Below, one piece after another: positions 3,188 to 59,197 of a DNA stretch of 64,000 nucleotides. The stretch is from contig NC_015581.1 in NCBI RefSeq assembly GCF_000214825.1, positions 1,240,001 to 1,304,000 on the forward strand, in the 5' to 3' direction. The position numbers were made by a program, and so were the translations under genes. Within the stretch, counting starts at the first letter, position 1. Every line of letters starts with the position of its first letter. This DNA is from Thiomicrospira cyclica ALM1 (GTDB lineage Bacteria; Pseudomonadota; Gammaproteobacteria; Thiomicrospirales; Thiomicrospiraceae). The notes beneath the pieces are model-generated. The model searched no databases. It had not been told where the DNA came from and saw nothing but the letters and a program-made list of their open reading frames with translations.

Positions 3188-5647
3188 TCATGGATCACAG
3201 GGCACATGATACCAGCGTGCCTGCTGCTGACGCCATAAAACCGGCACCAGGCCTGGTTGCTGATTCAAAATAAATTCGATGGCTCCCGTACAAGCGGTAT
3301 TCAGCGGTTTGGCCTCAGTATACTGCGCCACACGCGCCAGCACATCGGGATGCGGCATACCGAAACGATTGCGAAATCCGGCCGAAAAAATCAGCCAACC
3401 CGGATTAACCGCGGCTAAAAATTGCGGATCAGACGAATGATGCGAACCGTGATGCCCGGCTATTAAAATATCGGCTCGCACCTTTTCATCACCATGATAC
3501 CTCACTAGTGCCCGTTCATGGGTCCGACCTAAATCGCCAGTGACCAATAGTACCTGGTCACCTGCTTGAACACGCAACACACACGAGGCATCATTATGAT
3601 CCAATATTGGGAAATAACCTGGGGCTAAAATGTCAAACACCACCCCATCCCAATGCCAACTTTGCCCCACCTGACATAATTCAAAGTCCTGCTGATGATA
3701 TTGTTGTGCTAAGCGTTCAGGCTCACCGGTCAAGCGCAGATCAAACGCATGTTTGCGGCGTAATGATTCAACACCACCGGCATGATCTAAATCGGCATGA
3801 CTGATAATAATTCCCTGATAGGGTTTCACCGGCCTTTGCTGTAAAAACGGGACTATAACCCGCTCACCCGCATCTGTATTAATCCCAAAGCGAGGTCCGG
3901 CATCATAAATCATCCTATGATGCCGCGTATCAATAACCACCGCCTGTCCCTGGCCGACATCTAACACCGTTACCCGGGCCTGCCCTAGCGCTAGGGTTTC
4001 GAGTTTACTACCGTTATGATAATGCCATAGACTCGTGGCCAATACGCTGGTCAAAACCGCGCCAGCCAGTAACCAGCGTCCACGCCACCACCTGGCCTGC
4101 TGGTGACCACTCACCCATAAAAACATCACCGTATATAGGGCGACCACTTGCCATAAACCAGGTGCTGGTAAGGTCAACTCACTATGCGGCCAACGAGCCA
4201 CCCCATGTAAACCCCACCAGAGTGCCAACCATAAATAATCAGCGAGTTGAATCAACCAACGAATGACATGATTGAATTGTGAATCACAACAGCCTAACCA
4301 AAAACTCAACTCGGCTAAAAAACCGGTGATCAGCACCAGTGGCAAGCCAATCAAACTGACAAAAGGCACCGCCACTAAATTGGCAATCACACTATAGGTT
4401 GGAAAGGCTTGATAAAACCACCACAAGCCCGGAATCAAGCCTAACGAAATAAACCATTGAATCGACCAGGCCTGGTACAAGCTATTTTTCAGACCAGTAT
4501 AATAATGTGATCGTGTGCGCTGATAACCTAACCATAAAAAAATCATCGCCACCGCTAAAAACGACAACCAAAAACCGGGCGCTAACACACTGGCGGGTTG
4601 CCAAAGCACCATCAACCAAGCCGCCAGCAATAACAGCGGCCAGGGCTGGCGCTGACGGCGCATCAGCATAAACACCATCACCACCAGCACCATCAACCAA
4701 GCGCGTTGAGTGGGTAAGGTAAAGCCCGCCAAAATCGCATAGACGGTGGCAAAAATAACCCCCACCGGCACGGCTATCCAAACTCTGGGCCACAGCGACC
4801 ACACGCCAAACAGCCTGACACCCAACCACCACAGCATCGCACCCACCCCATAACCCATCGCTGCCACCAACGCAAGGTGTAAACCAGAAATCGCCATCAA
4901 ATGAATGGTGCCGGTCGCTCGCATTACCCGCCACTGATCTTCAGTAATCGCAGCGCGATCGGCCAAGAGCAAGCCTGAGTAAATCCCAGCAAACTCCGAA
5001 TCACCCCAATGCGCCCTAACCCGCTGGGCTAATTCATGACGGTATCGATGCCACCCCCAGCTTACCCCCAAATCCCATTGAGCCGTTTGCCAAGCCGACT
5101 TGTCCATGCGAACTCGTGCCCGCCCGGCAAGATGTTGCTGTTTGACCCAAGACTCATAATCAAAACCACCCGGATTACTTAAACCTCTAAGGGGTTGTAG
5201 TTGCACCAGTAAACGATAGCGATGATTGGGTGATAAAGCGGGACAATCCCAACAACTTAATTGCACATAACGAGGTCGTAATCGATACTGCCAATACTCA
5301 CCACCCCCTGACACCGACTCTATTTTTCGAACAGCAAACACCGCTTGCTGTTGACTGCGCCCAAAGCGTCGCTGTTCCGTTACTAGGCTAACAATTTGAC
5401 CGGTGACATAAGCTTGATCACCCACGCCAGTTAAAGGCAAAGGTGCTGTCCATCGCTCAACTAACACCAAGACCAAACCACCCAGCGCTATGCCGATTAA
5501 TGCTTGTCCAATACCTAGCCGCTCAAAACTCTGTGCTAAAATACCCAGCACTAAAATAACGGCAAAAAGCACCGGCGATGGTAGCTGTGGCAATTGAAAC
5601 AACCATAGGGTAACGGCTATCCAGCCGAGGGCAAACCAAACAAACAT
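3188..5647 (-). CDS. comEC: ComEC/Rec2 family DNA uptake channel
   Basis: The 819-residue membrane protein matches ComEC, which passes single-stranded DNA through the inner membrane in natural transformation. An N-terminal helix pair precedes an OB-like segment, then the competence domain with many membrane helices (MAISGLHLALVAA), then a C-terminal metallo-beta-lactamase-like domain of about 250 residues with DVGQGQAVVID, ISHADLDHAGG, TGDLGR and HHGSHHSSDP. An open frame continues upstream to 5911, but that part is antisense to the DUF2062 gene and has no signal or domain, so I take the ATG at 5647, preceded by AAAGAG. That ATG shares two bases with the start of the divergent DUF2062 gene. 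Two CAGGCCTG palindromes lie within it (3248 and 4467). Confidence 0.92.
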   Translation of the reverse strand: MFVWFALGWIAVTLWLFQLPQLPSPVLFAVILVLGILAQSFERLGIGQALIGIALGGLVLVLVERWTAPLPLTGVGDQAYVTGQIVSLVTEQRRFGRSQQQAVFAVRKIESVSGGGEYWQYRLRPRYVQLSCWDCPALSPNHRYRLLVQLQPLRGLSNPGGFDYESWVKQQHLAGRARVRMDKSAWQTAQWDLGVSWGWHRYRHELAQRVRAHWGDSEFAGIYSGLLLADRAAITEDQWRVMRATGTIHLMAISGLHLALVAAMGYGVGAMLWWLGVRLFGVWSLWPRVWIAVPVGVIFATVYAILAGFTLPTQRAWLMVLVVMVFMLMRRQRQPWPLLLLAAWLMVLWQPASVLAPGFWLSFLAVAMIFLWLGYQRTRSHYYTGLKNSLYQAWSIQWFISLGLIPGLWWFYQAFPTYSVIANLVAVPFVSLIGLPLVLITGFLAELSFWLGCCDSQFNHVIRWLIQLADYLWLALWWGLHGVARWPHSELTLPAPGLWQVVALYTVMFLWVSGHQQARWWRGRWLLAGAVLTSVLATSLWHYHNGSKLETLALGQARVTVLDVGQGQAVVIDTRHHRMIYDAGPRFGINTDAGERVIVPFLQQRPVKPYQGIIISHADLDHAGGVESLRRKHAFDLRLTGEPERLAQQYHQQDFELCQVGQSWHWDGVVFDILAPGYFPILDHNDASCVLRVQAGDQVLLVTGDLGRTHERALVRYHGDEKVRADILIAGHHGSHHSSDPQFLAAVNPGWLIFSAGFRNRFGMPHPDVLARVAQYTEAKPLNTACTGAIEFILNQQPGLVPVLWRQQQARWYHVPCDP

Positions 5648-6194
5648 GGCAAAAAAACTCTTTAAAAAATGGACACCCCATCCAGCTAAACTCCTAGAAA
5701 AGCCCGGTTTAGCCCGAATTGCGCATTGGTTACAAGAACCGAACTTGTGGCACTTAAATCGCAGCTCTGTCGCCAAAGCCTTTTTTATCGGGCCATTTTG
5801 GGCGGCCATGCCAATACCTTGGCAAATGGTGGTCGCCGCCATCAGTGCCATTAGTCTTAAGGCCAACTTAATGCTAAGTATTTTACTGGTATGGATAAGT
5901 AATCCTATCACGATGGGACCGATTTGGTATTTTAATTATTGGCTGGGATCGACTTTATTAGGTGAAGCGGCCAAAGAAAATCTAGCCTTTGAAATGAGCT
6001 GGAGCTGGATTAGCCATACCTTTGTGGCGATTTGGCAACCGCTGATGCTAGGTAGTTTGGTAGTGGGAGTGAGTGCAGGGATCTTCGGTTACTTACTAGT
6101 ACAGCTGGTGTGGCAAATTCAGGTGCGATTGAGTTGGCGCTCTCGACAACGCCAACGGGTAGAACAAACCGAATACAAAAAGCCGCGCAATTAA
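5646..6194 (+). CDS. DUF2062 domain membrane protein
   Basis: The 182-residue protein has the DUF2062 pattern: a basic amphipathic N-terminus, FIGPFWAAMPIPWQM (about residues 48-62), hydrophobic segments near residues 60-105 and 130-160, and a strongly basic tail. The family is widespread in proteobacteria and of unknown function. Its ATG lies inside the palindrome CATG together with the ComEC start on the other strand, so the two genes are divergent with overlapping start codons. Possible ribosome site: the weak GAGG about 16 bases upstream. It converges with the Lon-like gene ending at 6211. Confidence 0.85.
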   Translation: MAKKLFKKWTPHPAKLLEKPGLARIAHWLQEPNLWHLNRSSVAKAFFIGPFWAAMPIPWQMVVAAISAISLKANLMLSILLVWISNPITMGPIWYFNYWLGSTLLGEAAKENLAFEMSWSWISHTFVAIWQPLMLGSLVVGVSAGIFGYLLVQLVWQIQVRLSWRSRQRQRVEQTEYKKPRN

Positions 6195-6210
6195 GCGCAA
6201 TTAAGCTGAC

Positions 6211-8634
6211 TTAATCGCCGCTATCGCTCGACTTCTCATTCATGCGTTCCAGTGCCTGCATCAAACGGCCATTAAATGAGTCCGCCGGATATTGACCTTC
6301 CTGATCCAATTCACCGACCGCAAGGTTACTTAACACAGCCAGTCCCTCATCAACGTGCTCAATCGCGTAGATATGGAAAACGCCCTGATCAACCGCATCA
6401 CGAACTTCCGCATTTAACATTAAATGGCGCACATTCGATTGCGGAATCACCACGCCCTGCTGACCCGTTAAGCCGCGCGCTTTACAAACCTTGAAGAAAC
6501 CTTCAATTTTCTCGTTAATGCCGCCGACAGGTTGAATTTCACCAAACTGATTCACCGAGCCGGTTACCGCTAAATCTTGGCGCATCGGCACTTGCGCTAT
6601 CGCCGATAGCAAGGCGTAAAGTTCAGGCGATGACGCACTATCGCCCTCAATACCGTCATAGGTTTGCTCAATAACAATCGAGGCACTAAAGCCAAGCGCG
6701 CGGTAACGCATATAACGCCCACGCACATAACCCGATAAGATCAGCATCCCTTTTGAGTGAATCGGCCCGGCCATTTCAATCTCACGCTCAATATCGACCA
6801 CGCCTTCATCGCCCGCAGAGGCTTGCGCAGTAATCCGTACCGGCTGACCAAAAGACTGCCGACCGACGGTCATTACGGTTAAGCCGTTGACTTGACCAAC
6901 GTGCGCATCCGTTAAAGAAATTAACACCTGCTGTTCAATAATCGCGCGATGATAGTAATCTTCCATCAACCCAGTATGAAATTCACGCTGAGCAATGGTG
7001 GCTTCAATGGTATCTCGGGTTACCAGCGATTCCCCTTTCGCCCGCGCAAAGGCATTCGCCTCGGCCAACACATCACGCAAGATCGCTTTGTTGGTATAGA
7101 GGCGGTTTTTGTCTTCGGCCAAACGCGACGCATATTCGGTTAAACGCTCGTACGCCGACACATCAACCGGTAAATCATCCCAGTTGGCGACTTCGCTGGC
7201 GAGTTGTTGCACTAAAGCCAATTCATGCTCCGGGGTGCGATCCAACTCAACCTCAAATTCAACCTGCACTTTAAACAAGCGACTAAATTGGGCATCAATT
7301 TCTTGTAAGGCATAAAAGTGTGCCGCCTGCCCCAACAGTACCAAGGTCACATTTAACGGAAAATCGGGAAGATGATAAGGCACCACACTATTGCTGGATG
7401 GCACATCAAAACTCAGCTGACGCGACATCAAAGCGGCTTTCAAACTCGACCAAATTTCAGGATCTTTTAAGATCGATTGCATACTCAACATTAAAAAACC
7501 GCCATTGGCTTTTTGCAGCAGGCCTGCTTGATGATTCATCGCCAAGCCCAGGGTGTCACCGCCCAATCCCTGATGTCCCGACTGAATGGCATAACCAAAC
7601 AGTTTCGGTAAGCTGGCGTTTTGCTCATAAATCACCGGAGCGTGTTCCAGTCCACGATGATCAACCAACAAATTCACCCCAAATTGACTTAAGCCCTGCT
7701 GATCCAGCATCAACTCTTCTAAGGGCGAGGCACTGCCACCAGAACCACCATTATTTGCCGTGGTTACTTGATCGGCACTTTGGTCCCAAAATAAATGCAA
7801 CTTGGCTAATACGGCCTGCGCCAAGTCATCCAAATAGTGACCCACCGTCTCATCGTCAAAACGGGATTTCAATTTGTCGATCAAGGGCATCACTTGCTCT
7901 TCAGCAACTTGGGTGTTAAGTTTTTTGCCCTCTTCCATAAATTCATGTTGAATCGTTGGAAAGCGAGTTAAACCTTCATTGAGTTGCGCTTCAACTAAAT
8001 CTAATGCCTCGGTATAACGGGCTTGATCATCGGCAGACAGCGTTTTTAACTCCGCTAAACGCATTTTTTTGCCATCAACAATCGCGTGCAAAACAAAGTT
8101 ATTTTCCGTTTGCAGAATATCAATACTCAGTTGCTCGGCCAGTTCGAACGCCGGACGCAAGACTTCCTCTTGCTGCGCGGCCATTTTTCGCTCCAATTGT
8201 TGCGAGCGCAGTTGATAACCATGACCATCAAACACCAACGGCAGTTGATGTTTCAGTTGCGCAATAAATTGCTCTATTGCTAGTTTAAATTCATGGCCTT
8301 TGCCAGCAGGAAAATACAGATAACGAGTTTTTGGCGGTTCTTTTAAATCCGCAACCAGAACCACATCATCCGGCATAGGTTTCGCGGCGGCAGCTTTATT
8401 TAGTAACGCCTTGGTCATACCGATTCGGCCAACCCCGGGTTCTCCCATAATAAAAATATGGTTATGATTGCGCTTCAAGTGCAAACCAAAGTTTAAGGAT
8501 TGATAGGCACGTGGATGAAAACGCTGCATAAAAGCCTCGGCACCGGTTTCATTTTGTGCAAATGCCTGCGCATCAATCTGGGTTTGACGATATAGTTGGT
8601 CTACACGAAGTTTTTGCATGCGAAGAATGTCCAC
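6211..8634 (-). CDS. Lon-like ATP-dependent protease (LonB/YcbZ type)
   Basis: The product of about 800 residues has an N-terminal AAA_32-type ATPase region with a P-loop-like GEPGVGRIGMT (64-74), in which arginine stands where the usual lysine is, and a long helical insert. The C-terminal Lon proteolytic domain has the catalytic serine in EGDSASSPELYALL and the lysine in GGINEKIEGF. It resembles the Lon-like proteins of gammaproteobacteria (YcbZ) rather than classical Lon: there is no Lon N-terminal substrate domain. The start is uncertain: GTG at 8634, or ATG at 8619 (MQKLRVDQLY). It is divergent from and close to the desulfhydrase gene. A CAGGCCTG copy is at 7519. Confidence 0.9.
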   Translation of the reverse strand: MDILRMQKLRVDQLYRQTQIDAQAFAQNETGAEAFMQRFHPRAYQSLNFGLHLKRNHNHIFIMGEPGVGRIGMTKALLNKAAAAKPMPDDVVLVADLKEPPKTRYLYFPAGKGHEFKLAIEQFIAQLKHQLPLVFDGHGYQLRSQQLERKMAAQQEEVLRPAFELAEQLSIDILQTENNFVLHAIVDGKKMRLAELKTLSADDQARYTEALDLVEAQLNEGLTRFPTIQHEFMEEGKKLNTQVAEEQVMPLIDKLKSRFDDETVGHYLDDLAQAVLAKLHLFWDQSADQVTTANNGGSGGSASPLEELMLDQQGLSQFGVNLLVDHRGLEHAPVIYEQNASLPKLFGYAIQSGHQGLGGDTLGLAMNHQAGLLQKANGGFLMLSMQSILKDPEIWSSLKAALMSRQLSFDVPSSNSVVPYHLPDFPLNVTLVLLGQAAHFYALQEIDAQFSRLFKVQVEFEVELDRTPEHELALVQQLASEVANWDDLPVDVSAYERLTEYASRLAEDKNRLYTNKAILRDVLAEANAFARAKGESLVTRDTIEATIAQREFHTGLMEDYYHRAIIEQQVLISLTDAHVGQVNGLTVMTVGRQSFGQPVRITAQASAGDEGVVDIEREIEMAGPIHSKGMLILSGYVRGRYMRYRALGFSASIVIEQTYDGIEGDSASSPELYALLSAIAQVPMRQDLAVTGSVNQFGEIQPVGGINEKIEGFFKVCKARGLTGQQGVVIPQSNVRHLMLNAEVRDAVDQGVFHIYAIEHVDEGLAVLSNLAVGELDQEGQYPADSFNGRLMQALERMNEKSSDSGD

Positions 8635-8652: not shown

Positions 8653-9591
8653 TTGTATCAAACCCCTTTAGGTCTCAAACAAGTTTTGACCACACCATTA
8701 CAACCGATCCAGTGGCCAAGGCTAACCGGCAATCAGCAGGCCTGGATCAAACGCGATGACCTTAATCACCCACGGATTCAAGGGAACAAGTGGCACAAGC
8801 TACGCCTTAATATGCTGGCGGCGCAACAAGCCGGTTGTGCCGGCTTGCTGACTTTTGGCGGCGCTCACTCGAATCACATTGCGGCCACGGCGGCAGCGGC
8901 TTACGACTATGGCATGGCGGCGACGGGCATCATTCGTGGTGATGAACTGAGCGACAATCAGCAGGCCTGGTCAGCCACCCTCAAAAATGCAGTGGCACTT
9001 GGCATGACCTTTGAGTTTGTCAGTCGTAGTCATTATCGACAACGCAATCAGGCCGACTGGATGGCGAAATGGCACGCGGTCTACCCAAACTATTACGTCA
9101 TACCGGAAGGCGGCAGTAATGATCTGGCCATCACCGCTATGGCCGATGTTATGGCACAGATTAATGACCAATGCCCAGACTGGACACATTTACTCTGTGC
9201 CGTAGGTACCGGCGCCACCCTAGCAGGCCTGGCGAAAGCCGCGCCCAATAAAACCACAATTAACAAAGCTGTATGGGGCATCGCTAGCCTAAAACAAGCC
9301 GAGCATTTAATCCCCCAAATTGAAACCTGGGTTGGACAACCACAAAGCAACTGGCGCTTATTAAGCGGCTTGGGTAACACGCCCTTTCATGGTGGTGGCT
9401 ATGGCAAAACCACCCCCGAAATAACCGCCATGCAACAACAATTCGAACAACACAACGACCTGTTACTAGACCCCATCTATAACGCTAAAGTCGTCTATGC
9501 CTTTGATCATTTGTTAGCCCACAATGCCTTCCCCGAAGATAGTCGAATCATTATTTACCACAGTGGCGGACTGCAAGGTCGCAGTGATTAA
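8653..9591 (+). CDS. PLP-dependent D-cysteine desulfhydrase / ACC deaminase family enzyme
   Basis: This fold-type II PLP enzyme of about 312 residues has WIKRDDLNHPRIQGNKWHKL, where the lysine of GNK is the expected PLP Schiff base, then LLTFGGAHSNHIAATAAAA and the phosphate loop AVGTGATLAGL. Family members release sulfide or ammonia from D-cysteine or ACC; which one acts here cannot be decided from sequence. No in-frame ATG exists near the N-terminus. TTG at 8653 with AGGTG just upstream is my choice; another TTG at 8596 would overlap the Lon-like gene. It holds three CAGGCCTG copies within 490 bases (8737, 8962, 9224), the densest group in the window. Confidence 0.85.
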   Translation: MYQTPLGLKQVLTTPLQPIQWPRLTGNQQAWIKRDDLNHPRIQGNKWHKLRLNMLAAQQAGCAGLLTFGGAHSNHIAATAAAAYDYGMAATGIIRGDELSDNQQAWSATLKNAVALGMTFEFVSRSHYRQRNQADWMAKWHAVYPNYYVIPEGGSNDLAITAMADVMAQINDQCPDWTHLLCAVGTGATLAGLAKAAPNKTTINKAVWGIASLKQAEHLIPQIETWVGQPQSNWRLLSGLGNTPFHGGGYGKTTPEITAMQQQFEQHNDLLLDPIYNAKVVYAFDHLLAHNAFPEDSRIIIYHSGGLQGRSD

Positions 9592-9725: not shown

Positions 9726-10361
9726 ATGAAATTGAACAAAACCCTAGCAGGCCTGCTGCTTTCCGCTGGCATGATGACTTCTGCATCGGTTATGGCTAAT
9801 GCATTACCACACTCACCGTCGCTAGCGCCAGAGCGTGAATCTCACCAGATTCCGCAAGGCTTGTATATCTCCCCAGAACAAGCCTATGAAATGGTTAAGT
9901 CGGATGACAATGCTATTTTGGTCGACGTGCGTACGCCAGAAGAATGGATGTTTGTAGGTTATTCACCTCTTGCTAAAATCATGCTGCCATCAGTGATGTT
10001 TGATTACTCGCAAATGGACACGGTACAAAATATGCCTCGCTATATGCCAGCACCCAATCCAAACTGGATCGCTGACTTTGAAGATCGTCTTGCCGATTTA
10101 GACGGTAATGAAGAAACAAAGCTGATTATTATGTGTCGTTCCGCTTCCGAACGTGCCGCACCCATGGCGCGCATCTTAGATCAGTATGGCTATAAAAATG
10201 TGTACCTTCTATTAGGTGGCTTTGAAGGCGGCACTGTAAGAGAGGGTGAAAAGAAAGGCTTCCGTTTAGTTAACGGCTGGAAAAACTCTGGCATGCCATG
10301 GACCTATGACATTGATCCCGATGTGGTTTATTTCAAAAAATACGGTGTAACTTACGAATAA
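9726..10361 (+). CDS. Secreted rhodanese-domain sulfurtransferase
   Basis: The 211-residue protein begins with a signal peptide (MKLNKTLAGLLLSAG, cleavage probably after MANA near residue 26), followed by one rhodanese domain: ISPEQAYEMV, AILVDVRTPEEW, then the active-site loop CRSASERAAPMA with cysteine as the expected persulfide carrier, and VYLLLGGFEGG. The fold transfers sulfane sulfur; location in the periplasm follows from the signal peptide. GAGAGGA is the ribosome site. It is a single gene with a strong promoter (9625) and a shared terminator at its end. A sulfur-responsive role is plausible but not shown. Confidence 0.9.
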   Translation: MKLNKTLAGLLLSAGMMTSASVMANALPHSPSLAPERESHQIPQGLYISPEQAYEMVKSDDNAILVDVRTPEEWMFVGYSPLAKIMLPSVMFDYSQMDTVQNMPRYMPAPNPNWIADFEDRLADLDGNEETKLIIMCRSASERAAPMARILDQYGYKNVYLLLGGFEGGTVREGEKKGFRLVNGWKNSGMPWTYDIDPDVVYFKKYGVTYE

Positions 10362-10385
10362 GCGCTCGCTTTTTTCGTCTCCAAT

Positions 10386-10413: not shown

Positions 10414-10433
10414 ATTAGGTAACAAACAAAACA

Positions 10434-17804: not shown

Positions 17805-17814
17805 GACTCGCTCC

Positions 17815-19467
17815 TTAAAATTGGTAACTGATATTGGCCCAAACACGCGGTACATCATCTCGCGTATCGGCTTGAGGTAAACCACCGCCCCAACGCCAAG
17901 CCGCGATTAATTCGCCACGCCAGGGTTGGTGGTTGTATCGAATCCCTAGTCCACCGCCGCTGTACTCGCGACTATTAGACGGCTGGTTTTGATCAAATGG
18001 GTTGGCATTAATTTGAGTTTTAGCGGCGTCAATAAATCCGTAGGGCGTCCATGCTGGATCAAGTTGGTAGCGGATTTCTAATTGCAGTAATGCCGCTCGG
18101 TCGGCACTGCCTTCGCCAATGGGGTAAGCACGAACGGCACGAGCGCCACCGATACTCATTTTTTCAGCACTATCGAGGTTGTCTTTTGCCCACTGACTAT
18201 TAAGTCGCAAAAACCCAGACCAGGCCTGGTTGAATGCTTGAATACGTGCAACATCAAGATTTACTTTTTGAAATTGCCCATGAGTTTGCGCTGTCAGGCG
18301 GTCATTAAAACGATCTTCGCTATCACGAATATTGAGATTACCCCAGGTGAATATAGCACTGCCATAGGTGATGCCTCCCAGCCCTATTTGGTCGCGCTTA
18401 TCAAAATTTAATGCGATGGGTAGAACCGTAGCGGTTTTAATTTTATCGGAATCTATCACTCCGACCTTATCGTTAAAGCGTTTGAACTGTAGGCTAGTGA
18501 CCAGTGATAAGTTGGCATTTTGTGAACGTAAAATAGGATAGCTGGCACTGATTGTTGTAATTTCGGCCTGACCCGTTGCATCGAGTGCACTAAAGTCTTT
18601 GGCCAGCTGGTAATCGGTTCGAACATAGCTCAACTCACCTCTTAACCCCTCATAGCGAATGGGAAACTGGTAGTTAACACTCCCAAAGAACATTTGTTCG
18701 TCGGTTGTCATGCCACTGACACTGAGCTGGTCACCTAATAGTAAGAGTCGGCTCCAGTTTAGGTTGCCAATCAAACGGGTGTCGCCGGTAAAGCGGTTAC
18801 CATGATTGTCAATATTAACTAATCCGCTGTATTGTTTGGCGGGGGTTGCTTGCAAAATAAAGTCTGCTGCTCCCGTTTCGGCACCCGGTTGAATAATCGG
18901 TATGATACTGATGCCCGGTAAATCGGCAATGAGCAGCGCTACCCGTTCTAAAGTGGGCGAGTAGATGATGTCACCAGGTTTAAGGGCATTTAGGAAGGGT
19001 TGAACTTGCTCCGCGAGCTCACCCGTGGCCGTCACCTGTCCATAACGCCCCTCTAATAGAGCAATGACAAGCTGACCATCCGCTAACCGCTGTGCCGGTA
19101 GGTATGCGCGGGCAAAAGGATAACCATGTTCGCGGTAATATCGGGTAATGTCGTTTGCAAGCGCCCGCATGGCCGCCAAGTCGTATAGATTGTCGGTTAG
19201 GTCACCCAGCAGGCCTGCTAAAACCGCATCACTAAAGACCGTGTTACCTTCAAAAACAACTTTAGACAAAGGTACGCTGGTGCCGCCATGTGTGGATTCT
19301 ATTAAGGGTTCGGTGAGGATTTCTAAGTTAAGGTCACGCTCGAATGGCGCAGGGGGTTGTTGTAGCGTATCGCGAAGCAACTGACCCGCATCGGGCTGAG
19401 TTGCGGCATAACTTTTATGGGCCAATAAAGAAACGATGAGTGCTAGAACAAAAAAAGAATAGGGCAT
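17815..19467 (-). CDS. TpsB outer-membrane transporter (ShlB/FhaC family)
   Basis: The 550-residue protein has a signal peptide (MPYSFFVLALIVSLLAHKSYA), a periplasmic POTRA part (about 60-210, VVFEGNTVFSDAVLAGLLGD ... ARAYLPAQRLADG) and a C-terminal beta-barrel ending in aromatic WANISYQF, the usual outer-membrane signature. The VRAYPIGEGSAD motif is the conserved FhaC barrel-loop motif. It exports the TpsA protein encoded 10 bases downstream; the tpsB stop lies next to the tpsA ribosome site. Two CAGGCCTG copies are within it (18221, 19210). Confidence 0.93.
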   Translation of the reverse strand: MPYSFFVLALIVSLLAHKSYAATQPDAGQLLRDTLQQPPAPFERDLNLEILTEPLIESTHGGTSVPLSKVVFEGNTVFSDAVLAGLLGDLTDNLYDLAAMRALANDITRYYREHGYPFARAYLPAQRLADGQLVIALLEGRYGQVTATGELAEQVQPFLNALKPGDIIYSPTLERVALLIADLPGISIIPIIQPGAETGAADFILQATPAKQYSGLVNIDNHGNRFTGDTRLIGNLNWSRLLLLGDQLSVSGMTTDEQMFFGSVNYQFPIRYEGLRGELSYVRTDYQLAKDFSALDATGQAEITTISASYPILRSQNANLSLVTSLQFKRFNDKVGVIDSDKIKTATVLPIALNFDKRDQIGLGGITYGSAIFTWGNLNIRDSEDRFNDRLTAQTHGQFQKVNLDVARIQAFNQAWSGFLRLNSQWAKDNLDSAEKMSIGGARAVRAYPIGEGSADRAALLQLEIRYQLDPAWTPYGFIDAAKTQINANPFDQNQPSNSREYSGGGLGIRYNHQPWRGELIAAWRWGGGLPQADTRDDVPRVWANISYQF

Positions 19468-23145: not shown

Positions 23146-24315
23146 ATGTTTAACCCTGCAAATCAAGCAACTAAAGTTATTGTCGGTCTATCCGGGGGCG
23201 TTGATTCGTCTGTAACGGCCTGGCTGCTTAAACAGCAGGGCTATCAGGTTGAAGGGCTATTTATGAAAAACTGGGAGGGTGATGATACCGATGATTATTG
23301 CCCTGCCGCTGTTGACCTACAAGATGTATTCGCCGTCTGTGAACAACTTGATATTCCGTTGCATGTTGAAAACTTTGCCAAAGAATACTGGCAAAATGTG
23401 TTTGAGCATTTTTTAACCGAATACCAAGCCGGTCGCACACCTAACCCGGATATCTTATGTAACAAAGAAATAAAATTTAAAGCGTTTTTAGACCACGCAT
23501 TGGCTCTTGGCGCCGATAAAATCGCCACAGGTCACTATGCGCGAGTGGCACAGTCTGCGCAAGGTGATTACCAGTTATTAAAAGGTCTTGACCCTAATAA
23601 AGACCAAAGCTATTTTTTATACACCTTGCAACAATTTGCGCTGTCACATACCTTATTTCCCATTGGCCACCTACCCAAACCAGAGGTTAGACGCCTTGCC
23701 GAAGCCGCAGGCCTGGTGGTGCATAATAAAAAAGACAGTACCGGAATTTGTTTTATTGGCGAACGCAAGTTTAAAGATTTTCTGCAACGCTACTTACCCG
23801 CACAGCCGGGGGATATGGTTAATGAACAGGGCGAAACGGTCGGTCGTCATGAAGGCTTAATGTATTACACCCTTGGCCAACGCAAAGGCTTAGGCATTGG
23901 CGGCGGGCACGGTGATTCGGGTGAACCTTGGTTTGTTGTCGATAAAAACCTAACGACTAATCAACTGATTGTGGCGCAAGGCGATCAACAGCCCAGTTTG
24001 TATCACAACGCCCTTTCAGCGCAAGATTTAGACTGGGTTATCGGTCACGCGCCGCCATTAAACCAAGCACTGACCGCAAAAATTCGTTACCGCCAACAGG
24101 AGCAGGCCTGCTGGATTCGTGCTTTTCAGGCCGACTCTAACGGTAAAAACCAAATTGTTGTTGAGTTTGAGCAACCCCAAAAAGCCATTACACCCGGCCA
24201 GTCGATTGTGTTTTACAACAACGAGGTGTGCCTAGGCGGTGGTGTTATTAATGACCGCAGTGACAACTGGCGTGCCCTTGCGGCATCGAGCGAAATGAGC
24301 AATCAAGAAGAGTAA
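23146..24315 (+). CDS. mnmA: tRNA-specific 2-thiouridylase MnmA
   Basis: The 389-residue protein matches MnmA, which puts sulfur on U34 of Lys, Glu and Gln tRNAs. It has the PP-loop [15 protein letters not shown], the first catalytic cysteine in [12 protein letters not shown], the tRNA-binding region ATGHYARV, and the second cysteine in [13 protein letters not shown]. The C-terminal beta-barrel ends in [15 protein letters not shown]. hflD follows after 6 bases, as in enterobacteria. CAGGCCTG copies lie at 23708 and 24103. Confidence 0.97.
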
Positions 24316-25012: not shown

Positions 25013-25020
25013 CAGGCCTG
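25013..25020. repeat. CAGGCCTG palindrome, intergenic
   Basis: This copy lies in the 19-base gap between the convergent hflD and GST stop codons. Two more copies follow at 25140 and 25332. Confidence 0.9.
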
Positions 25021-42206: not shown

Positions 42207-43378
42207 TGCGCGCCTCCCTGCGATGCTAATTCAACCACGCGCGCCGCGGCTTGCGCTAAATCATTCGCAGCTTCGATAGACAAGCCACTTTCAGCCAACA
42301 TCTTACGACCCAATTCCGCATTAGTACCCTCTAGCCTCACCACCACAGGCAAGGTTAAACCCACCTCTTTTACGGCGCTAATAATGCCTTCGGCAATCAG
42401 GTCACAACGCACAATGCCGCCAAAAATATTGACTAAGATGGCTTTCACGTCCGGATCAGACAAAATTAATTTAAATGCCGCTGCAACACGTGCCGGGGTG
42501 GTACCACCGCCGACATCTAGGAAGTTAGCGGGTTGCCCACCTTGCAACTGAATCAAATCCATCGTGGCCATAGCTAAACCGGCACCGTTGACCATACAAC
42601 CAATATTACCCTCGAGCGCAATATAGTTGAGCTGGTGGGTAGAGGCTTCGGCTTCACGCGCGTCTTCTTGGCGCATATCACGTTGCGCCAGCAGGCCTGC
42701 TTGTCGGTATAAGGCGTTACTATCAATGTTGACTTTGGCGTCCAGCGCAACCAGTTCACCCGATTCGATACGAACCAAAGGGTTAATTTCAACCTGCATC
42801 AGATCTCGCTCAATCGCCATTCGATACAATTGATTAAACCAATGACCGAGTGCCTTAAAACTCACCCCAGTCAACCCCAACGCAAATCCCATTTCACGAG
42901 CCTGGTAAGGCATGACACCCAGAACTGGGTCAACACTAAAACGATGAATTTGATCTGGTTGCGTTGCCGCCACCTCTTCAATGTCCATACCACCCGCCGG
43001 ACTTACCACAAAGCAATAGCGTTTGGTGACACGATCCAGCAACAAACTGAGGTAATATTCATGCTCAATTTTCAGCGTTTGTTCTATCAACAGGGCATCA
43101 ACCGGCAAGGCTTTACCTGCTGTTTGATGGGTGGCTAAATGACTACCTAGTAGACCTGTAGCCGCCGCTTCCGCTTCGGCAAGATTGCTGGCTAAAACAA
43201 CGCCACCAGCTTTACCACGAGCACCCGCATGAATTTGCGCTTTAACCACACAAGCATCTGTGGGTAATTGTTCATAAGCACCGGCTAATTCCGTTAGCGA
43301 CCTAATCAGATGACCTACCGGAACCGGTAAATCATAGTCAGCAAATAATGCTTTTGCTTGGTATTCATGCAAATTCAT
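42203..43378 (-). CDS. sucC: Succinyl-CoA synthetase beta subunit
   Basis: The 391-residue ATP-grasp subunit has [57 protein letters not shown] and [14 protein letters not shown]. It binds nucleotide and the succinate carboxylate and pairs with SucD. A CAGGCCTG copy is at 42692. Confidence 0.97.
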
Positions 43379-43777: not shown

Positions 43778-44226
43778 TGGCCTTTAATCGCTAAAATACT
43801 GACCTCAAAGACGAAGTTTTCGCCTGCCAAAGGGTGATTAAAATCAACTTTCACTTGATCTTGTTCCTCATCAACAGCGACGACGGTGCCGGGAATTTCA
43901 TCACCCGTTGGGGTCGTAAAACCAATCACCAGGCCTGGTGCGAGATCCATATCATCGGCGAACTCGACTCGGGGAATATCATAGACATTGGTTGGATCTG
44001 GGTAACCAAACCCATCTTCTGGCGGTACGCTAAACTTGGCTTGCGTTCCCACTTCTAGTCCTATCAATAGCGCTTCTAGGTTGGGATGTAACTGACTGTC
44101 ACCTAATTCAAGCGTGACGGGATCGGTTTCATCAGCCTGATCTAGGACTTGGCCCGATGGCAGAGCAATGCTGAAGGCTAGCACGATTTGTAGGCCTGGA
44201 CCGACTCGTAGATTTTGATCTGTCAT
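43774..44226 (-). CDS. FKBP-type peptidyl-prolyl isomerase (FkpB/SlyD-like)
   Basis: The 150-residue protein has FKBP features typical of SlyD/FkpB: VLDQADETDPVTLELGDSQ, LIGLEVGTQAKFSVPPEDGFGY and VDFNHPLAGENFVFEVSI. It lacks a long His/Cys metal-binding tail, so it is nearer FkpB. ATG 44226 is preceded by GAGGGAG. The lipoprotein gene ends 14 bases upstream. A CAGGCCTG copy at 43930 encodes PGL in the insert-in-flap domain region. Confidence 0.88.
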   Translation of the reverse strand: MTDQNLRVGPGLQIVLAFSIALPSGQVLDQADETDPVTLELGDSQLHPNLEALLIGLEVGTQAKFSVPPEDGFGYPDPTNVYDIPRVEFADDMDLAPGLVIGFTTPTGDEIPGTVVAVDEEQDQVKVDFNHPLAGENFVFEVSILAIKGH

Positions 44227-46930: not shown

Positions 46931-48784
46931 TTAACGATAAAGCTTATGATACGTGCCTTGTTGCTGCAATAGGGATTCGTGATCACCACTTTCAATAATT
47001 TTACCATCTTCAAACACCAAAATACGATCTGCTTGCTTGATTGAGCTTAAGCGATGGGCAACAATTAATGTCGTCCTCTGGGCAAAGAACGGCGCCAGAT
47101 CTTCGTAGAGCTCGCGCTCGGTAGCCATATCTAATGCTGAGGTCGCTTCGTCCATAATTACCACTTTCGGATCTTGTAAAATCATTCGTGCAATCGCTAA
47201 ACGCTGGCGCTGACCGCCTGATAGTTTAATACCATTGCGCCCTAGCTCGGTATCCAATTGCTCAGGCAACTCACGGATCGCATCATCCAGTTGCGCCATC
47301 CGCAACGCTTCCCAGCAGGCCTGGTCATCCAAATCTCGCCCCAGGGTTAAGTTAAATCGTACCGATTGGTTAAATAACATCGGGCTTTGTAATACGGTAG
47401 CGACCTGCTCACGCAGAGGCTCATAGCCAATATCGCGAATATTATGACCGTTATAAAGAATCTGTCCTGACTCGGGCTGGTAAAAGCCCAACAACATATT
47501 CACCAATGTGGTTTTACCGCCACCACTGGCCCCAACCAGCGCCAGCTTTTCGCCCGGATTAAGAGTAAAACTTAAGCCATCCAATACCTTATGCTGCTTA
47601 CCAGGATAATGGAACACCAAATCATTCACTTCGACTTTGGTTTTACCAGGATGCTCAAAGGCCTTCACTTTTGGCTTATATTGCCCTTCCTGTTGCAAAT
47701 TCAACACACTATTAATCCGTGACAAACCGCCGTCTGCGGCGTTATAACTGTATTGAATCGCGAGCAATTCTTGCACCGGCCCCATCATAAACCAGAGATA
47801 CCCAAATACGGCCATCATCTGTCCAATGCTCAAGTCAGAAAAGACCACCATCAGCATACTGACACCGCGGAAAATATCAAAGCCGACTAAAAAAATTAAA
47901 AAGGATAGTCGTGATGCCGCATCACTTTTCCAAGTAAAAGCCTCCGAGTGCTGTTTGACATTTTTTGCCCTGCCGCGGACGCGGTCAAAAAAGGCACGAT
48001 CGCGATTCGCCGCCCGCACTTGCTGTAAAGCTTCCAAGGTTTCTGATAGGGATTGTTGAAACGCATCGAGTGCCGAATTTTCTTTTTTCTTTAAGCTTTT
48101 AACATGACGACCCATCCGCATAGTGAAATACACCACAATCGGATTCATCAACAAAATAAATACCGCTAACTGCCAATGCAACCAAAGTAAAATCAGCGTC
48201 ATGCCGACTAAACTCAGCACAGCGACAATCAATTTACCCACCGTGGTACCAATAAAGGTATCAATAGTATTGACATCATTAACTAAGGTCGCACTGACCG
48301 AGCCGGTTCCTAGCGTTTCATATTGCGCCATCGACACCCCTTGGACTCGTGCCAATAAGTCGCGTCGTATGCGATAGGTCACATCTTTTGCAATGACAGT
48401 AAACTGCTGCATTTGCCACACACCGAGCCCCACGCCTATAGCCCTTAGCACTATGGTAATAATGGTAATCGCGACAATGTAATAAATAGCACCATACCAG
48501 CTTTCTGGTGCTAAGTCTTGCAGGCCGGCTACGATCCAACCCGGATCATTTAGTAACACTTCGTCTACCAGTAAAGGTAATAACAATGGCAAAGGTACGG
48601 TAGCCAAGGTTGCTAGGATCGCAATAATGTGAGCCTTTATAAGCAAACCCTTGTGTTGCAGTACTAAATCAAAAATGCGTTGCCAAGAATAAGGCGGGAT
48701 GCCTTGGGTGCCGGTGCCAATGGTATCGGCAGGTAGGGTTACCTGTTCGTCTTTAATCGTTACTGCGGTTTGTTGACTAGTCAT
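46931..48784 (-). CDS. ABC transporter, fused membrane and ATP-binding domains (exporter)
   Basis: The 617-residue half-transporter has six helices (about residues 50-340) and an ATPase with Walker A GASGGGKTT, signature LSGGQRQRLAIAR, Walker B VVIMDEATSALD and the H-loop AHRLSS. The domain order is that of MsbA/LmrA exporters working as homodimers. The substrate is unknown: lipid, peptide or drug. Its start overlaps the tatD stop by 4 bases, so it is joined to the tatD-holB-tmk transcript. A CAGGCCTG copy is at 47316. Confidence 0.93.
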   Translation of the reverse strand: MTSQQTAVTIKDEQVTLPADTIGTGTQGIPPYSWQRIFDLVLQHKGLLIKAHIIAILATLATVPLPLLLPLLVDEVLLNDPGWIVAGLQDLAPESWYGAIYYIVAITIITIVLRAIGVGLGVWQMQQFTVIAKDVTYRIRRDLLARVQGVSMAQYETLGTGSVSATLVNDVNTIDTFIGTTVGKLIVAVLSLVGMTLILLWLHWQLAVFILLMNPIVVYFTMRMGRHVKSLKKKENSALDAFQQSLSETLEALQQVRAANRDRAFFDRVRGRAKNVKQHSEAFTWKSDAASRLSFLIFLVGFDIFRGVSMLMVVFSDLSIGQMMAVFGYLWFMMGPVQELLAIQYSYNAADGGLSRINSVLNLQQEGQYKPKVKAFEHPGKTKVEVNDLVFHYPGKQHKVLDGLSFTLNPGEKLALVGASGGGKTTLVNMLLGFYQPESGQILYNGHNIRDIGYEPLREQVATVLQSPMLFNQSVRFNLTLGRDLDDQACWEALRMAQLDDAIRELPEQLDTELGRNGIKLSGGQRQRLAIARMILQDPKVVIMDEATSALDMATERELYEDLAPFFAQRTTLIVAHRLSSIKQADRILVFEDGKIIESGDHESLLQQQGTYHKLYR

Positions 48785-49577: not shown

Positions 49578-51220
<1,643 letters not shown>

Positions 51221-51259: not shown

Positions 51260-52396
51260 CTAATTACGATTCAATATATAGCGACGAACCGCTCGATTGT
51301 GCTCTTCAAGCGTCACTGAAAAATGATGAGCGCCACCGCCTTTGGCTACAAAAAACAAATAATCGCGCTGATCAGGATTAACCGTGGCCATCACAGCCGC
51401 CGCTGACGGCATCGCAATCGGCGTGGGCGGTAGGCCACGTATAATATAGGTATTGTAGGGTGTTGGAGTATCCAGGCCTGCCCGCCCAATACGACCCTGG
51501 TAGGCATCGCCCATACCGTAGATGACAGTAGGGTCTGTCTGTAAGCGCATATTGCGTTCTAAGCGACGAATAAACACACCACTGATCATTTCTCGCTCAT
51601 GGGCAACGCCGGTTTCTTTTTCAATAATTGACGCCAAAATCAGTGCCTCATAAGGCGATTTTAACGGCAAGCCCTGACCTTCATTCGATGCTAACCAGGC
51701 CTGGTTAAGTGTTGCTACCATGGCTAACACCGCTCGCTCAACCAGCTGCCAATCAGATTCTCCCGCTTGATAAAAATAGGTTTCGGGTAATAACCAGCCC
51801 TCTAAAAATGGCGTCACACCCAACTCAGCCCAGCGATCACCAAGGGTCAACCAGGCCTCATCACTTAGGGTTTGTCGCACATTATCCAGCTCCCGAATTT
51901 TTTGACGCACCTGTGTCAAGGTTTCACCTGGCACAATCGTAAACGGGTGACGAACATTAGCGCCGGCCAGCAAGGCATCGCGCAGTTGTAACGGTGTCCA
52001 TTGCGGGTTGATGTCATACTCCCCCGCTCGAATCAAATGGGCTTGATCCTGCCAACGTAGCCACCACACAAACCAATCTGGGCGCTGTAAAACATGCAGA
52101 TTAGCCAATTCACGCGCGGTTCGTTGTGCCGACTGTCCTGGCAGTATTTCAATTCGGACCCGTTGTTCGTTAGGATTCTCAACATGATTCTCAACACCGG
52201 CCGCTGATCCAGCTATCGGCGCTTGCGACCAATGCCAGATTGAAATCGATGTACCCAGGCCTGCTAATAGCATCAGCAAGCCACTTATCACTAACATCCA
52301 CTGAATCAGCTTTACCCACCCCAACACTCGCTTGGATGGTACCGCAGGAGTATTGTTGTTGGAATCTTGAGTGTCATTAGCGTCTGCTTCTGCCAT
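51260..52396 (-). CDS. mltG: Endolytic transglycosylase MltG
   Basis: The 378-residue protein has an N-terminal membrane helix (about 28-48), then a YceG-like domain with ILASIIEKETG containing the catalytic glutamate, and RLQTDPTVIYGMGDAYQG. MltG cuts nascent glycan strands in the periplasm and limits their length. It is the conserved neighbour of pabC and tmk. Three CAGGCCTG copies (51473, 51696, 52256) lie in it. Confidence 0.94.
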   Translation of the reverse strand: MAEADANDTQDSNNNTPAVPSKRVLGWVKLIQWMLVISGLLMLLAGLGTSISIWHWSQAPIAGSAAGVENHVENPNEQRVRIEILPGQSAQRTARELANLHVLQRPDWFVWWLRWQDQAHLIRAGEYDINPQWTPLQLRDALLAGANVRHPFTIVPGETLTQVRQKIRELDNVRQTLSDEAWLTLGDRWAELGVTPFLEGWLLPETYFYQAGESDWQLVERAVLAMVATLNQAWLASNEGQGLPLKSPYEALILASIIEKETGVAHEREMISGVFIRRLERNMRLQTDPTVIYGMGDAYQGRIGRAGLDTPTPYNTYIIRGLPPTPIAMPSAAAVMATVNPDQRDYLFFVAKGGGAHHFSVTLEEHNRAVRRYILNRN

Positions 52397-53338: not shown

Positions 53339-54750
53339 GATTGTAATGCCCGCAACAGACCCTTAGCTTTATGGCGCGTTTCCGCCAATTCCGCTGCGGG
53401 GTCTGATTCAATAACGATACCCGCGCCCGCCCGAAAGCGAAGCGCCTGACCTTGTTGGATAAAAGTGCGAATGAGAATATTAAAATCCAAGCTACCATCA
53501 TAGTTGATATAACCGACTGCCCCTGTATAGGCCTCACGAGGTGACGATTCTAGCTCGGCAATAATTTCCATACAGCGCACTTTCGGACAGCCGGTAATGG
53601 TACCACCAGGAAACATCGCTTCAATCACTTGCAAGGGGGTTAGCTCGGGTTGTGACTTGCCACGCACATTTGACACGATATGATGAACATGCTGATAACT
53701 CTCAATCACCATCAACTCATTAACTTCCACAGTGCCTGGCTGACTAATTCGCCCTAAATCATTACGCTCTAAATCAATTAGCATAATATGCTCAGCACGT
53801 TCTTTCGGATGGGCAATTAATTCGGCCATCAAGGCTTGGTCAGCGGCGAGGGAGTCACTGCGCTTGCGAGTTCCAGCTATCGGCCGAGTATCTACCCAAC
53901 CATCACGCACACGCACCAAACGTTCTGGCGACGAAGAGATAATCGACCAGGCTTGGTTATTCCCGTCGTCGAGATTAACCAAGCAGGCAAAAGGTGCCGG
54001 ATTATGAACACGCAATTGCGCATACAAATCGACAGGATTAAACGTCACCTCAGTCTGCTGCCATAACCGAGAAATATTGACCTGAAACACATCACCGGCG
54101 AGAATATAATCTCGAATTTTTTCAACACTAGCGCAATAGTTTTCGGGCGGATCTTCTTGCCAATCTTGCCAATTTCCTGCCAGTAACGACTCTGAAGCAA
54201 TATCTGCCTGACTATCACCAAGCGCCACATAATCGGCTTGCAATTGCGCGAGTATCTCCGGTTGATCCAAAGGCGCCACAAAACACACTTCTTGCGTGGC
54301 ATGATCAAGCATAATCGCTGCCGGCGCTTTTGCTAACCAGGCTAATGGTAAATGGCTGGTTGTTAATGCCAGTGTGGGCTCGATAACCCCGGCATATTCA
54401 TAAGCAAAGTAGCAAAACCAACCGCCCCAAAAAGGCCAATCCCCAAGAAGTTCGCGATCCGCTGACGAGAGTTGACGTTGTTCCACCAACCAGGCCTGCT
54501 CGAAATTGTCACGAAAGGCTTGTGCATCAACAAACCTATCCAGACGAAGTGGCGTGTCACAGTAGGCAAATAAAATGTCAAACCGCCCTAGGGCGGTTGC
54601 TTCGTCTGAGGTGGAGACTGTTTTAGCGACACTTTCAAGCAGCTGCCTATAACGGGTTGGTGCTTGATGATGGAGCGGCAATAAATCACGCGCACCCCAA
54701 GGTTGTCTCACCAGAGTGACCCCAACACTGACTAGATCTATCGCTATCAA
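53335..54750 (-). CDS. pabB: Aminodeoxychorismate synthase component I PabB
   Basis: The 471-residue chorismate-utilising enzyme has the typical DVFQVNISRLWQ, SSSPERLVRVRDGWVDTRPIAGTRKR, HIMLIDLERNDLGR and MFPGGTITGCPKVRCMEII motifs. It transfers ammonia from the PabA amidotransferase to chorismate. The start seems to be TTG at 54750, immediately after the fabF stop, and pabC overlaps its end. PabB is not part of the E. coli fab cluster. Confidence 0.93.
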   Translation of the reverse strand: MIAIDLVSVGVTLVRQPWGARDLLPLHHQAPTRYRQLLESVAKTVSTSDEATALGRFDILFAYCDTPLRLDRFVDAQAFRDNFEQAWLVEQRQLSSADRELLGDWPFWGGWFCYFAYEYAGVIEPTLALTTSHLPLAWLAKAPAAIMLDHATQEVCFVAPLDQPEILAQLQADYVALGDSQADIASESLLAGNWQDWQEDPPENYCASVEKIRDYILAGDVFQVNISRLWQQTEVTFNPVDLYAQLRVHNPAPFACLVNLDDGNNQAWSIISSSPERLVRVRDGWVDTRPIAGTRKRSDSLAADQALMAELIAHPKERAEHIMLIDLERNDLGRISQPGTVEVNELMVIESYQHVHHIVSNVRGKSQPELTPLQVIEAMFPGGTITGCPKVRCMEIIAELESSPREAYTGAVGYINYDGSLDFNILIRTFIQQGQALRFRAGAGIVIESDPAAELAETRHKAKGLLRALQS

Positions 54751-57202: not shown

Positions 57203-58144
57203 TTAGTTGTCCTCTAGTAGGTTTACTATGTTGGCTAATGTAGCAGAATCATAGACAGATGCAACCGTCATACTTCGATCAATGCGGCGATTTAATCCGG
57301 CTAATACCTTGCCCGGACCGCATTCGATCAGATGGGTAACCCCATCAGCGGCAAACTTTTCAATAGTTTTAACCCACTGCACCGGTTGATGAAGCTGGGC
57401 TACCAGCGCAGCTTGTAAATCATCAATCTTATCAGATACTTGCGTATTCACATTATGCACAACGGGTAATCGCGGTAATTGCCAATCAATTGAGGCAATG
57501 GCTTCAGCCAACTGTTCGGCAGCCGGCTTCATTAGAGCACAGTGTGATGGCACACTCACCGCCAAAGGTACGACTCGTTTGGCGCCCATCTCAGTTGCCT
57601 GAGCCATAGCACGTGTAACTGCAGCTGCTTCACCAGCAATAACGACTTGACCTGGCGAATTATAATTAACCGCAGACACGATCGCACCTTGTGACGCCGT
57701 TGCACAGGCCTGCTCGACCTGCTCATCTGTTAGACCGAGAACCGCCGCCATGGCACCTTCACCCGGTGCTACAGCCGTTTGCATTAAACTACCCCGTTTA
57801 GCTACAAGCGCAACAGCATCTTCCAAACTGATTGCTTCTGCAGCAACTAATGCAGTGTATTCACCCAAAGAATGACCCGCAAAATACACCGGCTCCCACT
57901 CGGGCAACACCTCTTTGAGCATGGCATAACAAGCATAACCAGCAACCAGCATAGCTGGCTGAGTGACTGCAGTGTCATTTAGACGCTCTTCAGGTCCCGC
58001 CGTCACAACTTGCCATAGGTCATAATCCAGTACAGATGACGCCCGAGCAAAGTAATCCAAAATAGCAGGATGCGTTTCAGCTAACGCATTCAGCATCCCA
58101 ATAGACTGAGCCCCTTGACCGGGAAAAACCACTACAGATGTCAT
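57203..58144 (-). CDS. fabD: Malonyl-CoA-ACP transacylase
   Basis: The 313-residue enzyme has VFPGQGAQSIGML, the active serine motif GHSLGEYTALVAA and SVPSHCALMKPAAEQL. It loads malonate on ACP. It stops one base before fabG begins. A CAGGCCTG copy is at 57705. Confidence 0.97.
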   Translation of the reverse strand: MTSVVVFPGQGAQSIGMLNALAETHPAILDYFARASSVLDYDLWQVVTAGPEERLNDTAVTQPAMLVAGYACYAMLKEVLPEWEPVYFAGHSLGEYTALVAAEAISLEDAVALVAKRGSLMQTAVAPGEGAMAAVLGLTDEQVEQACATASQGAIVSAVNYNSPGQVVIAGEAAAVTRAMAQATEMGAKRVVPLAVSVPSHCALMKPAAEQLAEAIASIDWQLPRLPVVHNVNTQVSDKIDDLQAALVAQLHQPVQWVKTIEKFAADGVTHLIECGPGKVLAGLNRRIDRSMTVASVYDSATLANIVNLLEDN

Positions 58145-58201
58145 AACAACCCTTTTTGATGCTTTACTAATTAACCCGCCATGGCACGCCAGTGCCAGAC
58201 T

Positions 58202-59197
58202 TTAATAACGAATGAGCGCAGAGCCCCAAGTGAAACCACCACCAAATGCTTCAAGCAGCATTAATTGTCCGCGCTGGATTCGGCCATCTGAAATAGCTTG
58301 ATCGAGCGCAAGCGGAATAGAGGCGCTAGACGTATTACCATGACGATCGACAGTAATAACCACCTGATTGTCGGCTAAACCCAACTTTTTTCCTGTGGCT
58401 TTAATAATGCGCAGATTTGCTTGATGGGGTACTAACCAGTCCAATTCACTGGCATTAATATTATTTTTTTCTAAGGTTTCTGTTGCGATACGACTCAGGG
58501 TATTCACCGCAACCTTAAACACCTCGTTGCCCTTCATATTCATGGTTCGCTCTGCCACATCGTCGCTTTGAGCAAGTCGTGACGGCCCAGTTGGAACATG
58601 TAACAACTGCTCATACTGTCCATCGGCATGAATATGTGTGGCAATAATTCCGCCCGCTGAAGGTTCACCCGTCTCAGTCGACTCCAAAATCACCGCACCA
58701 GCGCCATCACCCCATAAAATACAATTACTGCGGTCAGACCAGTTGGTTATCCGCGACAAACTTTCAGCACCTATTACCAGCGCACGTTTCACCATACCCG
58801 TTTTGATAAATTGATCGGCCACACTTAACGCATAAACAAAACCGGTGCATACCGCCTGCAAATCAAATGCTGGACAACTATTGGTAATACCAAGCTCACG
58901 CTGCACAATGGTTGCAGTACTGGGAAATATTTTATCGGGCGTAGTGGTCGCTACCAGAACCAAATCAATGTCATTCGGTGCCAGGCCTGCTCGTTCAATA
59001 GCTTGTTTGGCTGCCGCCACCGCTAGATCGCTAGTGACTTGATCATCAGCAATGATGTGGCGCTGTTTGATTCCGGTACGTTCTTGAATCCATTCGTCGG
59101 TAGTATCGACCATCGTCTCCAAATCGGCATTCAATAACACCCGCGCGGGCAAGTAACTGCCTGTTGATATAATGCGACTCACTCGGGAGATTGTCAT
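58202..59197 (-). CDS. fabH: 3-oxoacyl-ACP synthase III
   Basis: The 331-residue enzyme has the cysteine in AFDLQAVCTGFVYAL, the histidine in WLVPHQANLRI and the asparagine in RHGNTSSASIPLAL. It initiates fatty acid synthesis with acetyl-CoA and malonyl-ACP. It lies 5 bases after plsX. A CAGGCCTG copy is at 58982. Confidence 0.97.
   Translation of the reverse strand: MTISRVSRIISTGSYLPARVLLNADLETMVDTTDEWIQERTGIKQRHIIADDQVTSDLAVAAAKQAIERAGLAPNDIDLVLVATTTPDKIFPSTATIVQRELGITNSCPAFDLQAVCTGFVYALSVADQFIKTGMVKRALVIGAESLSRITNWSDRSNCILWGDGAGAVILESTETGEPSAGGIIATHIHADGQYEQLLHVPTGPSRLAQSDDVAERTMNMKGNEVFKVAVNTLSRIATETLEKNNINASELDWLVPHQANLRIIKATGKKLGLADNQVVITVDRHGNTSSASIPLALDQAISDGRIQRGQLMLLEAFGGGFTWGSALIRY

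Follow-up and report, generated by a model that had tools for sequence, protein, structure and literature searches.

The palindromic octamer CAGGCCTG is a genome-wide signature of Thiomicrospira cyclica ALM1 (formerly Thioalkalimicrobium cyclicum; 47% G+C, PMC4891895) and of many of its relatives, and it is conserved at orthologous positions as a DNA word. The analysis is centred on a 64-kb stretch of the T. cyclica genome (1,240,001-1,304,000), referred to below as the window, which holds 28 exact copies; genome statistics were obtained from pattern counts over whole genomes and from sampled 20-kb stretches. The signature is real and larger than first claimed by a sequence-only reading of the window. 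It is also apparently undescribed, as that reading had supposed, and literature searches for the word in bacteria gave nothing relevant. We tentatively interpret CAGGCCTG as a self-recognition signal for DNA uptake.

Abundance and context in T. cyclica

Dinucleotide shuffles of the window gave a mean of 0.84 copies of CAGGCCTG and a maximum of 3, which bears out the sequence-only reading that the 28 copies stand against about one expected by chance. In the whole genome (1,932,455 bp, single contig) the word occurs 840 times, or 435 per Mb, as compared with 3 occurrences of the reversed control word, and a further 20 stretches (400 kb) contained 179 copies where 6.9 were expected. The enrichment is therefore neither restricted to the window nor explained by composition. 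CAGGCCTG exceeds a second-order Markov expectation 25-fold and is the top outlier among octamers in the window and likewise in the further 400 kb (464 kb in total). The Markov model of order 6 or 7 that had been proposed for this ranking was uninformative, with 24 of the 28 copies expected at maximum order, since the motif itself accounts for most occurrences of its sub-words.

The flanking consensus SCAGGCCTGS reported for the window is exact in its counts, with S as the left neighbour at 27 of the 28 sites (the exception is at 57705) and as the right neighbour at all 28. The preferred extension is longer, however. In T. cyclica it reads A(C/G)CAGGCCTG(G/C)T, with little conserved outside it; in several relatives it is ACCAGGCCTGGT, flanked by A/T tracts further out. 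No flanks are shared past ~8 bases around the word. The claim that near-misses are few stood in its substance and not in its number: the window holds 28 one-base neighbours instead of about six, but with ~23 expected by chance only the exact octamer is in excess. In the 464 kb there are 184 such neighbours (~170 expected). Deviations in T. cyclica thus show no overall excess; the biggest is at position 4 (34 versus 11), and the ends of the word are not favoured.

Three window copies are intergenic (25013, 27559 and 33834) and the remainder lie inside open reading frames (ORFs) on both strands, as had been noted. Over a larger sample of T. cyclica, 11 of 207 sites are intergenic, matching gene density; gene calls were made by a simple script based on ORFs and codon scores, and the intergenic fractions are approximate. 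The sites occupy several codon phases, and their spacing is near random (coefficient of variation 1.03). The biggest gap among the listed sites extends over 34 kb (genome 113,251-147,208, starting in L132), and its first 6 kb are the tuf-secE-nusG-rplKAJL-rpoB operon. This region is of the kind in which coding constraint is strongest, and the gap fits, as expected, a word that settles where constraint is loose. A foreign island was considered as the cause of the gap and was rejected at the gap start, which is this operon.

Conservation of individual sites

The status of each window site was read from alignment to two congeners, G054 and G061 (~78% identity). Sites are intact in 19/26 and 21/26 cases (73-81%) in the two genomes, compared to 11% of control octamers matched in base composition (Fisher test, 1e-12 and 1e-15). 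Amino-acid identity is higher in the sites (98-100%) than elsewhere (87%), so coding constraint contributes to their conservation. At codons where the amino acid and the first two bases agree, third-base identity is 89-93% inside sites versus 54% outside. Because synonymous positions inside the sites are protected in this way, the comparison shows that the DNA word itself is maintained, through selection or a biased restoring process.

Within comEC, the copy at 4467..4474 is intact in both congeners and that at 3248..3255 in neither. Intact in both are also the sites at 7519..7526, 8737..8744, 9224..9231, 9748..9755, 23708..23715, 24103..24110, 25140..25147, 25332..25339, 43930..43937, 47316..47323, 49753..49760, 51696..51703 and 54491..54498, together with the intergenic copies at 27559..27566 and 33834..33841, the copy at 57705..57712, which has the sole non-S left neighbour, and the copy at 42692..42699, which is intact in the distant genome G057 as well. 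The sites at 8962..8969, 38338..38345 and 52256..52263 are intact in G061 only, and that at 34985..34992 in G054 only. The intergenic site at 25013..25020 and the sites at 51473..51480 and 58982..58989 are lost in both, and those at 18221..18228 and 19210..19217 fall in regions that are unaligned in the relatives.

An artefact of composition or codon usage, or a dispersed mobile repeat, could draw on the location of the sites in conserved codons. This explanation is refuted by the genome count of 840 versus 3, by the counts across the family given below and by the protection of synonymous sites, and its probability is negligible. The 25-fold excess over the second-order model, neighbour words at chance level, the several codon phases, the intergenic copies and the lack of longer shared flanks also argue against it.

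Distribution and dialects

The closest named relatives of a window protein belong to Thiomicrorhabdus and Hydrogenovibrio. The family set consists of 63 genomes, 35 motif-bearing and 28 motif-free, in which g1 is Thiomicrospira, and g3 and g6 are genera that we infer to be Hydrogenovibrio- and Thiomicrorhabdus-like. Comparison of these related genomes, which had been suggested as a check, revealed that the word is family-wide, with a bimodal distribution: 32 of the 63 genomes contain 236-1173 copies of CAGGCCTG and the others 0-74. All 9 Thiomicrospira species are among the rich genomes, with 840-1128 copies each. In ~365 other Gammaproteobacteria the highest count was 338 in 4.1 Mb, which is 82 per Mb versus 435 per Mb in T. 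cyclica. The presence or absence of any dialect requires at least 7 changes when mapped on a tree of ComEC from 51 genomes. The word is perhaps under-represented in motif-free genomes, as if avoided, with 0 copies versus 4.9 expected in 320 kb of G032, G031, G008 and G053.

Some genomes poor in CAGGCCTG use a replacement word. G028 has 12 copies of CAGGCCTG and 1217 of CCGGCCGG genome-wide, CCGGCCGG being the top word in 80 kb of that genome (40 versus 0.4 expected), and no other genome stands out for it. G024, a motif-poor genome within a motif-rich clade, has CAGGCCGGG as its top word; this one-sided dialect, AAANTNAACAGGCCGGGT, when counted as CAGGCCGGG, amounts to 671 copies in G024, 395 in G038 and at most 93 elsewhere. 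The dialects, three in total, are mutually exclusive and have the centre GGCC in common, and of the replacement words CCGGCCGG is a palindrome and CAGGCCGGG is not. With repeats masked, samples of 80 kb from each of G032, G053, G031, G008, G026, G018, G044 and G014 yielded no replacement word; before masking, G053 and G008 had shown apparently over-represented words, which resemble repeat arrays and were discarded.

The sites of other genera have a more extended anatomy than those of T. cyclica, which lack outer A/T tracts. In five such genomes A/T content peaks 6 bp outside the core, at 84% for genic sites versus a background of ~57%, and at 99% for intergenic sites. The tracts lie 6-9 bp outside the core at genic sites, are seen in genomes of g3, g6 and g7 and in G028, and thus occur also in the CCGGCCGG dialect; in G024 they are one-sided. 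The G024 signal consists of an A-tract at -8 to -6, T (97%) at -4 and then AACAGGCCGGGT, beyond which nothing is conserved. Each half-site of the palindrome in the other genera is built in the same manner, with an A-tract, T at -4, A at -2 and then CCAGGCC, and for this reason the palindrome is best seen as a pair of inverted copies, overlapping each other, of the one-sided signal (A-tract, ~4 bases, A, C/A, CAGGCC...). In the same five genomes 36/127 sites are intergenic versus ~11 expected, and the intergenic copies in G005, G016 and G062 often form a hairpin followed by a T-run, resembling a terminator. Uptake signals in Neisseria and Pasteurellaceae are likewise over-represented between genes, often as hairpin terminators (PMC1852404).

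The GGCC centre common to all dialects also bears on a different explanation, in which the reader of the word would be a chemically different DNA mark, such as phosphorothioation, or an unknown defence system that separates self from non-self. Phosphorothioation is known at GGCC in Streptomyces, and the patchy presence of the word across the family is like that of defence systems. However, the word is present in all 9 Thiomicrospira, an unusual pattern for a defence system of patchy occurrence, and over-representation is not, to our knowledge, an effect that phosphorothioation is known to drive. We regard this explanation as improbable.

Methyltransferases

In cyanobacteria the highly iterated palindrome HIP1 and the palindromes that replace it are always accompanied by a matching methyltransferase (PMC4390886). 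By this precedent, CAGGCCTG would have been both created and preserved by mismatch repair coupled to methylation, with a methyltransferase specific for GGCC, AGGCCT or CAGGCCTG; a methylation or repair site is among the roles that the sequence-only reading had listed. The palindromic form of the word suits such a role, and near position 1,000,000 the T. cyclica genome encodes a single m4C-like methyltransferase, next to an HNH nuclease and an XRE regulator. No PF00145 (C5 methyltransferase) match was found in any of the 9 Thiomicrospira. PF01555 and PF02086 are scattered across the family genomes, and neither they nor PF00145 are associated with the motif (Fisher p 0.80, 0.16 and 0.20, respectively). 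In 11 of the 35 motif-bearing genomes, several of them complete, none of the three families has a match, rarer methyltransferase families not having been searched. One of the 11 is G028, with the CCGGCCGG dialect; its core consists of C and G only and offers no adenine, and the genome has no match to PF00145 or PF01555, the families expected for cytosine methylation. The non-palindromic one-sided dialect and the deviations that do not cluster at the ends of the word also disagree with this model.

The HIP1-type model therefore fails its main test. A link to methylation is not supported, because many motif-bearing genomes have no match to the three type II families, and we consider it slightly less probable than a mark of another chemistry. 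Uptake, or another self signal that is read by a protein, gives a better account of the data than methylation.

The m4C-like gene lies in L141:1-3131 (genome ~999,400-1,003,100), where a zinc-ribbon protein that carries a TSPPY methyltransferase motif is encoded together with an HNH nuclease and a regulator of the XRE type. This is the sole PF01555 match in the T. cyclica genome, and the cluster is possibly a restriction-modification cluster.

Uptake and recombination as possible functions of the word

We hypothesize that CAGGCCTG, in its extended form A-S-CAGGCCTG-S-T, serves the Thiomicrospira/Hydrogenovibrio/Thiomicrorhabdus family as a signal for self-recognition throughout the genome. A protein would read the word on double-stranded DNA, and DNA that carries it would be bound and imported preferentially during natural transformation; such preferential import would lead the word to accumulate and to be kept wherever protein coding permits. 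ComEC, plus perhaps an MSHA-type pilus, may provide the receptor and channel. This is our leading explanation, held with less than even confidence, because the dialects with a fixed core, the outer A/T tracts and the terminator-like copies resemble the uptake signal sequences (USS) of Pasteurellaceae and the DNA uptake sequences (DUS) of Neisseriaceae. Palindromy had been raised as an argument against an uptake mark, and it is weakened by the one-sided version in two relatives and by the half-sites that resemble it.

The comEC gene in the window, recognised by the sequence-only reading, is located at 3188..5911 (-) and encodes DUF4131, Competence and metallo-beta-lactamase domains (Pfam PF03772, E=6e-54). 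ComEC, as the inner-membrane DNA channel of transformation, is a possible partner of the signal. A PF03772 match is present in 33 of the 35 motif-bearing genomes, the two misses being draft metagenome-assembled genomes. In G033 an MSHA-type locus encodes an MshL-like secretin, an MshE-like ATPase, a GspF/MshG-like protein and prepilins. T. cyclica has only a reduced form of this system and a separate type II secretion-like cluster. An MshE/PilB-like ATPase is nearly universal in the 63 family genomes, and in some genomes gene order alone points to a Tad-like locus as well (L300, L309).

Several observations weigh against uptake. Of the 28 motif-free genomes, 24 have ComEC as well; its distribution is thus compatible with the hypothesis and not diagnostic, and comEC was rejected as a gene sufficient to explain the presence or absence of the motif. 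G024 keeps its dialect despite a shortened comEC (592 aa, with most of the beta-lactamase domain gone; L238:895-3554). The family lacks the classical type IVa route, because PilO of canonical type IVa pili occurs in 1 of the 63 family genomes and FimT/GspH in 3, none motif-bearing; on these distributions both were rejected as correlates of the motif. No PilT-type ATPase was found in T. cyclica, and G050 (655 copies, 86% complete) has only one very weak match to such an ATPase (E=2e-5). No receptor for the signal was found, FimT/GspH being the only minor pilins searched. Unlike in known uptake words, words with one mismatch are not in excess; for an uptake 10-mer of A. pleuropneumoniae they are reported to be ~11-fold in excess (PMC1939737). 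In T. cyclica itself, furthermore, both the A/T tracts and the terminator-like use of the word are absent.

The exactness of the octamer is what a threshold recogniser would produce, and it would suit a Chi-like site or another site of recombination or chromosome maintenance, which a RecBCD-type or nucleoid protein would read every 2 kb and whose dialects would track that protein. Chi-type words vary between lineages, as the dialects do here, and the density of 435/Mb, the mostly genic location, the random spacing and the conservation at orthologous positions are compatible with such a site. With strands assigned by GC skew, the one-sided G024 dialect favours the leading strand 30:14, although a G-rich word shows about as much from skew alone. 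A palindrome, on the other hand, cannot have the orientation by which known Chi sites are defined, the symmetric A/T tracts at a fixed distance suggest that shape is read on double-stranded DNA, and at least 7 gains or losses among close relatives would be odd for a core maintenance site. We rank uptake ahead of a Chi-like or structural site, which is unlikely, although less so than the marks and methylation considered above.

Further features of the genomes

The 8.5 kb of the window at 9756-18220 are free of sites and overlap a 2483-aa two-partner-secretion exoprotein, mainly ORF 10434-17885 (-), with TPS, MBG and GLUG domains; it adjoins a ShlB/FhaC-type transporter at 17815-19467 (-). Elsewhere in T. 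cyclica, L148:5120-19999 (-) (genome ~1,705,120-1,719,999) holds a giant open frame, at least 4959 aa long, that carries DUF5649, YDG and MBG repeats and probably encodes a very large surface protein. In G024, the shortened comEC adjoins a D12 methyltransferase gene.

Comparison with known systems

The family comprises 63 sequenced species, its hosts are free-living and culturable, and it includes three exclusive dialects and many losses. The origin, switching and disappearance of such words can therefore be studied in it, and the protein that reads them should be findable by co-variation. If that reader is not an uptake receptor, the family still contradicts the rule that a methyltransferase accompanies every highly iterated palindrome.

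Among known systems, HIP1 (GCGATCGC) and its alternates are similar in being exact palindromic octamers with hundreds of copies, mostly genic, that are swapped for a GC-rich palindrome in some relatives (PMC4390886). CAGGCCTG differs in that it has no matching methyltransferase family among the three searched, that one of its dialects is non-palindromic, that in relatives it has outer A/T tracts and terminator-like copies, and that its hosts are a gammaproteobacterial family. Chi of E. coli (GCTGGTGG) is likewise an exact, over-represented, genic and lineage-specific octamer, but Chi is directional, whereas CAGGCCTG is palindromic in most genomes. The DUS of Neisseriaceae, with eight dialects, are comparable in their family-wide dialects with a conserved core and in hairpin copies that serve as terminators; they are non-palindromic and betaproteobacterial. 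In Neisseria, the DUS is read by the minor pilin ComP. The USS of Pasteurellaceae (AAGTGCGGT / ACAAGCGGT) also have hundreds of copies, a core with dialects, A/T segments at a fixed distance and reuse in terminators (PMC12616744, PMC1852404), and the G024 dialect shares their one-sided build. The inner core is GGCC here and GCGG in the USS, most of the words described here are palindromic, and PilO is missing.

Only two bacterial families are known to discriminate self DNA at uptake by means of a short iterated word (PMC12616744). The present family may, somewhat more tentatively than the uptake function itself, represent a third and independently evolved uptake-signal system outside Pasteurellaceae and Neisseriaceae, one that is mostly palindromic, switches its core or collapses to a one-sided form, has been lost repeatedly and operates without a canonical type IVa pilus.

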